From contig JAUSOJ010000094.1 of assembly GCA_030656195.1 (NCBI GenBank), positions 1 to 47,142 on the forward strand: a DNA stretch of 47,142 nt. Reading direction: 5' to 3'. A model generated the notes under the pieces. The model was not told the DNA's origin. It worked only from the letters and a program-made list of their open reading frames with translations, and searched no databases. The position numbers were made by a program, and so were the translations under genes. Below are positions 31,350 to 46,563 of the stretch, piece by piece. Within the stretch, counting starts at the first letter, position 1. Each line of letters begins with the position of its first letter. Source of the DNA: Lutibacter sp. GTDB lineage: Bacteria; Bacteroidota; Bacteroidia; Flavobacteriales; Flavobacteriaceae.

Positions 31350-31463
31350 CTTAAATTAAATGCATAGATTTTTGTATTTTTACATTCCTTATTGCAATAA
31401 TTTACCAGTGTAATAAGTTAAAGGATTAGTAAAAAAGGCTGAATTTTAATTGGCACCACTTTT

Positions 31464-31552
31464 TGCGTTAAGGATTGAAGTGAAAATCCTTTTTTTGGAT
31501 TTTTTTTCCAAAAAAAGATTGCAACGGAAAGCCTGACCCTTGTGGTAACGCC
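31464..31552 (+). repeat. Structured intergenic element, copy A
   Basis: tgcgttaaggattgaagtgaaaatccttttttt...aaaaaaagattgcaacggaaagcctgaccc..ggtaacgcc; outer arms gcgtta/taacgc; shares blocks with 46273-46425. Confidence 0.75.
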
Positions 31553-31572
31553 AATAACAGTGATTATTTATT

Positions 31573-33789
31573 TTGCGGTTTAAATTTAAGTTTAGAAGTA
31601 AAAAACAATTTCTTTTGAAAAATAGTTTTAAAATCATTGCAGGCTTTTTATTAGCGCTTTTTGTGGCTAATTGTTCCACAAAAAAAGATGCGTTTTTAAA
31701 CAGAAGCTACCACTCGGTATCCACAAAGTACAACGTACTTTATAACGGCCATGAAGCTTTTCGCATCGGTTTGGAGCAATTAAATGCCAATTATGAAGAC
31801 AATTATTGGGAACGTTTGCCTATTGAGCCTTTAAAAGTTGATGAATTGGCGATGCCGGGAATGCAAGCAGATCCCGACAGTTCTCCGCAAGAATTTGAAA
31901 AATCCGAAGAAAAGGCGGTAAAAGCAGTGCAAAAACATTCCATGTTGATTGTACGCGAAGAACGCAACAAACAAATTGATGATGCTTATTTGCTGTTGGG
32001 AAAATCGCGTTATTATTCCAAAAGATTTGTGCCCGCGCTGGAAGCATTTAATTATGTGATCCTTAATTATCCAAAAGCAAATTTAATTAACGAAACCATT
32101 ATTTGGCAGGCAAAAACGCAGGTTCGGTTGCAAAATGAAGAACAGGCGATTAGAAGTTTAATGAATTTGTTAAAAGACAAATCGTTAAAAAGCAATATTA
32201 AAGAAGACGCGCATACCGTTCTTGCAATGGCTTACTTAAATTTAAACAGTTTGCAGCTTGGGATTAACCACCTTAATAAAGCGGTGGTTTCTAGCAATAA
32301 TAAAGAGCAAACAGCCAGAAATTTGTTTATACTGGGGCAACTTTATGGTGAAAAAGGATTGAAGGATTCATCAAATATTGCTTTTCAAAAAGTAATCGAT
32401 CTTAAAAAAGCGCCTTACAAATACAAAATTCATGCGCAGTTGGAAAAAGCCAAGAATTCAACCAATAAATTGGATACTGAAGAAACATTGGCGATTCTAA
32501 AAAAACTGACAAAAGACCGAGATAACAGGCCTTTTTTAGATGAATTGTATTACAGAATTGGCATGATTGAGCAAGAAAGCAGCACGGAAAATGCCATTGC
32601 CAATTTTAAAAAATCGCTGAAATCGAACTCAAAAAACAGCCTTCAAAGAGAACTTTCTTATGAAGCTCTTGGAAATTTATATTTCGACAAGGCGCAATTT
32701 ATGGTTGCCGGAGCTTATTACGACAGTATTTTATACATCACCAACAGCAATAACACAAAACGCGTGCGTCGTTTGTTGCGAAACCGAAATAATTTAAATG
32801 AGGTTATTTTATATGAAAACAGCTCAAAAATAAACGACAGCATTTTAAAGGTTGTTGCCATGGGTGAAGCAGCGCAAATAGCTTTTTTTAGCACACATAT
32901 TGAAAAATTAAAAGCCATTGAAGAAAAACAGGCAAACAAAACAACGTTTAAAAGCGGTTTGTTCAATCCAAATTTAGGCAAATCGGATGTTGGCGAAAAG
33001 TCGGGAAAATGGTATTTTTACAATGTTCAGGCGCTTGGTTTTGGTGAAATTGAATTTAGAAAAATTTGGGGAAACCGTCCTTTGTCAGACAATTGGCGAT
33101 TGGGAGACAAATCTCCATTAAGTTTGGGGAACGACCAAGGTCTTGACCAAAATATGGCAAATATCGATCAGGAAATGCTGGAACTTTCTTATTATTTAGA
33201 TAAAATTCCTTCAGAAAAAGTAAAAATTGACAGTATTGTAACTGAACGCAACACCGCTTATTTTAAATTGGGAATTATTTACAAAGATCAATTTAACGAA
33301 TTGGATTTGGCAAAAGAGAAATTCGAAAAATTAATCACTTTTGATCCAGATTTAACATTGTTGATTCCTGCCAAATATCATTTGTACAAAATTTACGAAA
33401 GTCAGGGCAACGAAAAAGCAATCGCCCTAAAAAACGATATTACTGCCAATTATCCGACTTCAAAATTCGCCAAGATTATTTTAAATCCGAACCAAGCACT
33501 TGAAGAAGATGAAAAAAATGCTGCAGAAACGGAGTATGCGGCAATATATCACGACTATGAAGCAGAAAAATTTGAAAGCGTCATAGAAAAAACCAACCTT
33601 GCGATAGCCAAATATATGGGCGAACCAATTGTTGCAAAACTGGAATTGTTAAAAGCCTTTGCCATTGGAAAAACAGAAGGATTGGTTGCTTTTAAAGAAG
33701 CTTTGGAATTGGTCGCATTAAATTATCCGAATACTGAAGAGGCGAAAAAAGCTTTGGAAGTGATAGAAACCATAAAACTAAAACTATAA
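31573..33789 (+). CDS. porW: Type IX secretion/gliding motility TPR lipoprotein PorW/SprE
   Basis: Lipobox 'LFVANCSTKKD', 'FLNRSYHSVSTKYNVLYNGHEAFRIGLEQL', TPR-rich body. Start codon is TTG at 31573 or 31615; no in-frame ATG is evident before the signal peptide. Confidence 0.85.
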   Translation: MRFKFKFRSKKQFLLKNSFKIIAGFLLALFVANCSTKKDAFLNRSYHSVSTKYNVLYNGHEAFRIGLEQLNANYEDNYWERLPIEPLKVDELAMPGMQADPDSSPQEFEKSEEKAVKAVQKHSMLIVREERNKQIDDAYLLLGKSRYYSKRFVPALEAFNYVILNYPKANLINETIIWQAKTQVRLQNEEQAIRSLMNLLKDKSLKSNIKEDAHTVLAMAYLNLNSLQLGINHLNKAVVSSNNKEQTARNLFILGQLYGEKGLKDSSNIAFQKVIDLKKAPYKYKIHAQLEKAKNSTNKLDTEETLAILKKLTKDRDNRPFLDELYYRIGMIEQESSTENAIANFKKSLKSNSKNSLQRELSYEALGNLYFDKAQFMVAGAYYDSILYITNSNNTKRVRRLLRNRNNLNEVILYENSSKINDSILKVVAMGEAAQIAFFSTHIEKLKAIEEKQANKTTFKSGLFNPNLGKSDVGEKSGKWYFYNVQALGFGEIEFRKIWGNRPLSDNWRLGDKSPLSLGNDQGLDQNMANIDQEMLELSYYLDKIPSEKVKIDSIVTERNTAYFKLGIIYKDQFNELDLAKEKFEKLITFDPDLTLLIPAKYHLYKIYESQGNEKAIALKNDITANYPTSKFAKIILNPNQALEEDEKNAAETEYAAIYHDYEAEKFESVIEKTNLAIAKYMGEPIVAKLELLKAFAIGKTEGLVAFKEALELVALNYPNTEEAKKALEVIETIKLKL

Positions 33790-46179: not shown

Positions 46180-46272
46180 TGTAAAATATTTTAGCGCAAG
46201 ATACTTAATAATTTATATTTTTTTGAGGGCTTATTTTTGAAAATCTGGCTTAGTTCTGGTTAAAATGTCATT

Positions 46273-46425
46273 TGCGTTAGGGATTACTTCACCTCTTATT
46301 TATTTTTTATTGGAGTTCAGTGAACCATGTTTGGAGTGAAAATCCTTTTTTGATTCGCCGATAGGCGAATTAAAAAAGATTGCAGCGAAAAGCCCCACCC
46401 GCCAACTGGCGGGGAACACCCAAAA
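46273..46425 (+). repeat. Structured intergenic element, copy B (with about 42-nt insertion in the first arm)
   Basis: tgcgttagggatt...gagtgaaaatccttttttgattcgccgataggcgaattaaaaaagattgcagcgaaaagccccacccgccaactggcggggaacacc. Confidence 0.75.
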
Positions 46426-46563
46426 CAATAGCTATAAATTGCTGTACTTGTTAGCATTTGATCCATAATCTTAACGTTTAGGTTATAAAACAGTAAACTA
46501 GGATTAACCATTAATTAACATTGGGCGGCTTAATTTGTAGTTCATAAAATAAATAAGAACGCG

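Follow-up and report, generated by a model that had tools for sequence, protein, structure and literature searches.

The window analysed here, 47,142 nucleotides of Lutibacter sp. DNA (contig JAUSOJ010000094.1), holds a palindromic multi-hairpin element in front of porW/sprE, a gene of gliding and secretion (copy A), and a second copy further along (copy B), and it raises the question of whether such elements are structured RNAs or mobile DNA. The blocks named in the initial annotation of copy A were all found in place, namely the outer arms, an aggatt/aatcct pair (31471-31476 and 31485-31490), a hairpin of a T-run and an A-run, and a gattgcaacggaaagcc block. That annotation knew of no name for the element, which proved to be Flavo-1 (Rfam RF01705, class sRNA). 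The match covers model positions 1-76 with 70.1 bits (E value 1.8e-13), lies above the gathering cut-off of the covariance model (42 bits), and is the sole Rfam match above its cut-off within the window. Copy A is like Flavo-1 in structure and in conserved letters over the full model, while the conserved palindrome exceeds the Rfam model by the outer arms GCGTTA/TAACGC. The sequence GATTGCARCGRAAAGCC, with at most two mismatches, occurs at 86 sites in the host genome, while its reversal, used as a control, occurs at none. The block pattern of copy A is thus far beyond chance. An integron attC site (GTTA/TAAC arms) was also considered, and was dropped by inspection on the orientation of the arms.

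Flavo-1 was published as an RNA: its discoverers regarded it as a likely structured RNA of unknown function, neither cis-regulatory nor a riboswitch (Weinberg et al. 2010, PMC2864571), and it has been listed as one of the most abundant small RNAs (PMC9029176). Here it makes up the core of a DNA insertion, as described below.

Insertion in the porW/sprE leader and at the copy B site

The 5' part of porW was found in 36 genomes, and the leaders were aligned. A continuous leader (...GGTTAGT-AAAAAACAA...) is present in seven close relatives (G005, G021, G002, G026, G023, G014 and G029) and in about 18 more distant members. Since the site is uninterrupted in close and distant members alike, the empty state is ancestral. 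A single insert is found in G000, G001, G009 and G003, and G034 carries a divergent insert at the same 8-mer, with three mismatches in its left terminal repeat (IRL). In the window, 161 bp lie between two copies of GTAAAAAA. The aligned leaders place the insert, in sense, in the porW leader, as had been proposed, but the limits given earlier (31464-31552) fall about 25-45 bp short of the inserted unit on each side. Core alignment alone would misplace the boundary by the same distance; the empty sites gave the correct ends. The porW start also had to be moved: TTG 31573, about 21 nt past the supposed end of the element, gives way to TTG 31615, the probable start in the alignment with relatives, about 63 nt past the core and 10 nt past the right duplication. 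Occupancy of the site (31429-31605; loci L101 and L096) is patchy, G003 (85% identical) being filled and G005 (91%) and G021 (90%) cleanly empty.

The copy A unit contains no gene. Its termini are eroded and are not recognisable by themselves at the terminal-profile threshold; a matching decayed right terminus (IRR) with a GG start, like that of copy A, is carried by G009 (L125). At copy B the blocks do recur in order, from 46274, but the run is interrupted by a 47-nt hairpin module, and because of this nested insert copy B stayed under the RF01705 cut-off in the window scan. Copy B has a dGTPase gene on one side and a divergent SusC-like ORF on the other.

Table 1. Positions of copy A, copy B and the neighbouring porW/sprE gene in the window
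Feature	Position	Strand	Basis
Left target-site duplication GTAAAAAA, copy A	31429..31436		Occurs once where the insert is lacking (7 close relatives, ~18 outgroups)
Whole insert of copy A, 161 bp, IS1595-type MITE (probable), decayed termini	31437..31597	+	Relatives without insert; 8-bp direct repeat on both sides
IRL copy A, decayed, GGCTGAATTTTAATTGGCACCACT	31437..31460	+	Set by insertion boundary; alone below profile threshold
Flavo-1 (RF01705) match	31460..31542	+	70.1 bits; full palindromic core 31461-31553
Outer arm GCGTTA	31465..31470	+	Pairs with 31546-31551; covaries between copies
Outer arm TAACGC	31546..31551	+	Pairs with GCGTTA 31465-31470; covaries between copies
IRR copy A, decayed, TTCTAAACTTAAATTTAAACCGCA on minus strand	31574..31597	-	Set by insertion boundary
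Right target-site duplication GTAAAAAA, copy A	31598..31605		Second GTAAAAAA bounding the insert
porW/sprE, probable TTG start 31615	31615..33789	+	NF052312 T9SS_PorW_SprE, 727 bits; start from leader conservation
Whole insert of copy B, 218 bp	46247..46464	+	Empty site in G026 (L260); both termini above 99% null threshold; imperfect target duplication AAAATCT/ATAATCT
IRL copy B, GGCTTAGTTCTGGTTAAAATGTCA	46247..46270	+	Terminus above 99% null threshold
Extra hairpin module ACTTCACC...GTTCAGTGAACCATGTTT, 47 nt, nested in left arm of copy B	46286..46332	+	Sequence inspection; module recurs in other copies
IRR copy B, GGATCAAATGCTAACAAGTACAGCA on minus strand	46440..46464	-	Terminus above 99% null threshold

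Terminal repeats and an IS1595-family partner

An inverted-repeat consensus was obtained from GG-initial sequences common to the flanks of several other copies. In nine less decayed copies the full unit measures about 170-350 bp and is bounded by 24-bp imperfect terminal inverted repeats (GGCTAAGTTCTATTTAYAACAGCA), with Flavo-1 inside, starting immediately past the left terminus. Up to 45 matches to the terminal pattern were found in a genome, G001 and G034 showing bursts, versus 0 for the reversed pattern. A search for inverted terminal pairs that was blind to duplications returned four Flavo-1-bearing units, three of them with perfect 8-bp duplications (AAATCATT, CAATTGCA and TTTTATTT). More loci with perfect 8-bp duplications (AAAAATAC, ATAAATAC, TTATTTTC, ACAATAAA, ATAAAAAG and TTTATTTT) came from lists that admitted only loci with 6 or 7 matching duplication bases or more. 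Perfect 8/8 target duplications are present at nine distinct sites in G000, G001, G003, G009 and G034. IS1595 elements generate 8-bp target duplications.

The left terminus was scanned once over 84,980 species genomes, and the matches were Lutibacter-type loci together with two contigs from a Cyclobacteriaceae-labelled MAG. Past this same IRL, these contigs (L362/L365) show the first part of a transposase that runs off the contig. A third contig of the MAG (L378) overlaps by 87 identical bases, continues with the remaining 309 transposase residues, and ends in the inverted terminus GGCTAAGTTCTAATATTGACAGCA, which was found without being a search target. The partner IS, assembled in this way across two contig ends, encodes an IS1595-family transposase (NF033547, 159.7 bits, cut-off 75, E value 9.2e-47; PF12762, 50.7 bits, above cut-off). 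The autonomous partner was not found in the 38 genus genomes searched, and for the transposase fragment no relative turned up among the genus genomes, 396 genomes of the order, plasmids or viral contigs. The IS1595 copies of the genus itself (PF12762 in 12 genomes) were rejected as the source of the MITEs, as the full one has other ends. This unrelated full IS1595-family element (G001, L341, ~1064-2023) ends in TTGAGGTCGCTATTT and is bounded by the 8-bp duplication AAGTTTAA.

Given units with matching terminal inverted repeats, target duplications and Flavo-1 inside, together with an IS1595 partner, we conclude that IS1595-type MITEs carry Flavo-1 in this genus. Copies A and B are very probably such MITEs, with the Flavo-1 palindrome as their interior, moved in trans by an IS1595-family transposase. 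Copy A inserted into the porW leader as a piece of 161 bp and duplicated 8 bp of target. Having no gene, it was most likely mobilised in trans by a DDE transposase of this family, which would recognise the 24-bp terminal repeats GGCTAAGTTCTATTTAYAACAGCA/GGYTTAATTCTAATAAGAACAGCA; that the partner found here moves the MITE is inferred from sequence. The Flavo-1 hairpin may be kept as a DNA palindrome rather than for any need of an RNA at each site.

The units share with the IS1595 family (ISXO2-like DDE transposases) the GG-initial terminal repeats, the AT-rich 8-bp duplications and a partner IS with matching ends; they differ in having no transposase and in a palindromic core of their own that the partner IS lacks. 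Like bacterial MITEs they are short, non-coding and multi-copy, with terminal inverted repeats, a target duplication and a matching autonomous IS. Unlike them, they have a registered RNA family as their core, with inner hairpins that are exchanged and nested. Copy B and nine other sites have clearly recognisable terminal repeats, and those of copy A are decayed. Copy A has the perfect GTAAAAAA duplication and empty counterparts, whereas the duplication at copy B is imperfect and its site is empty in G026. Against the IS1595-type MITE interpretation stand the decayed termini of copy A, the patchy porW occupancy (G003 filled, the closer G005 empty), and an autonomous IS known only from a MAG labelled Cyclobacteriaceae and not from the 38 genus genomes. 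In addition, a recognisable terminus (above the 99% null level) is found in only 9 of the 46 host-genome copies (~20%) and in none of the 11 copies of G019. The IS1595 vehicle therefore accounts for the window copies and the G001 and G034 bursts, but not demonstrably for all Flavo-1.

The initial annotation had suggested a REP-like mobile palindrome as one possibility. Mobility held up, in the form of a MITE of IS1595 type bounded by terminal repeats and target duplications, whereas the likeness to REPs did not. A REP/REPIN moved by a RAYT (TnpA-REP) transposase would also be an interspersed, palindromic, multi-copy intergenic element, and Flavo-1-rich genomes mostly also have RAYT/IS200-type genes. 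However, among about 20 RAYT-like loci, those flanked by palindromes each have a different one (GCGCGGATTTGCAATCCGTGCC, CGAAGTCTCCCGACTTCG and others) and never Flavo-1, and several Flavo-1 carriers have no RAYTs. The window units also differ in ends, in enzyme and in the 8-bp target duplication, and long terminal inverted repeats with such duplications do not fit. An origin of Flavo-1 from RAYT/REP systems, highly improbable on these grounds, was rejected from the flanks of the RAYT-like genes. The RAYT-like genes of the genus (L232-L251, L165 and L092) each have their own REP palindrome, and more than one family can occur in the same genome.

Covariation, strand preference and the RNA interpretation

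The initial annotation had proposed a check of covariation. Across 56 Flavo-1 cores, double changes were seen in 12 of the 17 pairs, with 98 double-changed cells versus 23 ± 4.5 after shuffling and 91% paired versus 29-41% with slid partners; the shuffle control can be inflated by relatedness, the slid control not in that way. Pair 12-87, for example, is GC in 41 cores, CG in 7, UA in 7 and unpaired in one, with rare intermediates. This very strong covariation would be expected of a functional structured RNA (an sRNA or a 5' leader element) that had spread through its usefulness. Template switching in DNA replication, however, generates hairpins that bear double changes of this kind and preserves them (PMC8794818), and it could also uphold the covariation of Flavo-1.

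G-U outnumber A-C intermediates by 10 to 4, as selection on an RNA would have it, but the bias is not significant (p 0.18) and is 4 to 4 at the outer stem, so that neither strand is clearly preferred. Relative to assigned neighbours, Flavo-1 lies 52 times in sense and 25 times in antisense between co-directional genes, 25 times between convergent and 26 times between divergent genes (crude ORF calls, orthologous sites included); the excess of sense copies favours an RNA, the mixed orientation does not. Of the Flavo-1 matches in F. psychrophilum, some run in sense and others in antisense to transcripts, and many show no transcription (PMC9723704). The RNA fold of copy A reaches a z of only -2, and whole copies were gained together with target duplications. 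To our knowledge, no function of Flavo-1 has been found in 15 years.

Also in favour of an RNA is an orthologous copy inside an operon, with the membrane-fusion gene on one side and, starting only a few nt further on, the RND-pump gene on the other; it is kept in six genus members (G006, G012, G019, G027, G028 and G035) with flank identity down to about 66%. The loci concerned are L192 (4567-4658), L088, L090, L080, L081 and L079, and some of the genomes with this copy are very poor in Flavo-1. Retained over such divergence, this copy may have been co-opted. Taken as an explanation of the family at large, a functional RNA appears distinctly unlikely to us, and Flavo-1 may be more aptly regarded as a family of mobile DNA than of RNA genes.

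Flavo-1 cores outside the IS1595-type MITEs

The element had been expected to be multi-copy and scattered in Flavobacteriaceae, and so it is: 46 matching pieces were found in the host genome by blastn and at least 63 matches by covariance model, and counts in 37 genus genomes (covariance model, capped at 65 per genome) range from none or one up to over 60. Flavo-1 is also present in some other families of the order. In G019, nine near-identical cores have unrelated flanks; neither common flanks nor target duplications were found around the copies of this burst.

Such copies are what one would expect if the core were mobile by itself via another enzyme and IS1595 MITEs were a later vehicle. Constant core ends (TTTGCGTTA...TAACGCCCA) where the MITE ends are missing, the presence of Flavo-1 without this terminal repeat in other families (G040, G048 and G053), and a MITE (L352) with identical terminal repeats but no Flavo-1 arms point the same way. 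On the other hand, short AT-rich termini are quick to decay, and neither an enzyme nor a target duplication nor an empty site was found for any core-only copy, so we consider this possible but on the unlikely side. Still more tentative is the thought that the core might be a new, independently mobile DNA hairpin, with strict Watson-Crick arms due to template switching or a hairpin-specific enzyme, which would swap and nest loop hairpins, ride IS1595 MITEs in some lineages and spread without them elsewhere.

Flavo-1 hairpins do nest inside hairpin loops. The 46286-46332 module of copy B recurs elsewhere, as part of the left arm in the G001 copy A and in G000 L035 and as part of the right arm in the G003 copy A. 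Depending on the copy, this module, ACTTCACC...GTTCAGTGAACC..GTTT, thus occupies either the left or the right arm (46286-46332; L035, L094 and L101). In some genomes the central hairpin of Flavo-1 is swapped at the same site for another palindrome, CGTCATTGCGAG...CTCGCAATGACG (L124 vs L002; L327; L326; L338; G034 porW leader, L098). In other families, represented by G048 (L193-L198) and G040 (L199-L201), the Flavo-1 end AGCTCC adjoins an A-run and a terminator-like hairpin, an arrangement that looks like a different vehicle or target preference. Five Flavo-1 copies of G048 have about 260 bp upstream in common; a short ORF from this conserved leader into Flavo-1 was dropped as a peptide gene, being absent from frame-breaking copies.

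If many Flavo-1 copies are the cores of MITEs, annotation pipelines call transposable elements RNA genes, and strong covariation alone would be insufficient as proof of RNA. With transposase and ends both defined, the function of Flavo-1 could then be put to the test. The insertion directly upstream of porW/sprE and the fixation in the RND operon provide a natural test of the effects of insertion on expression.
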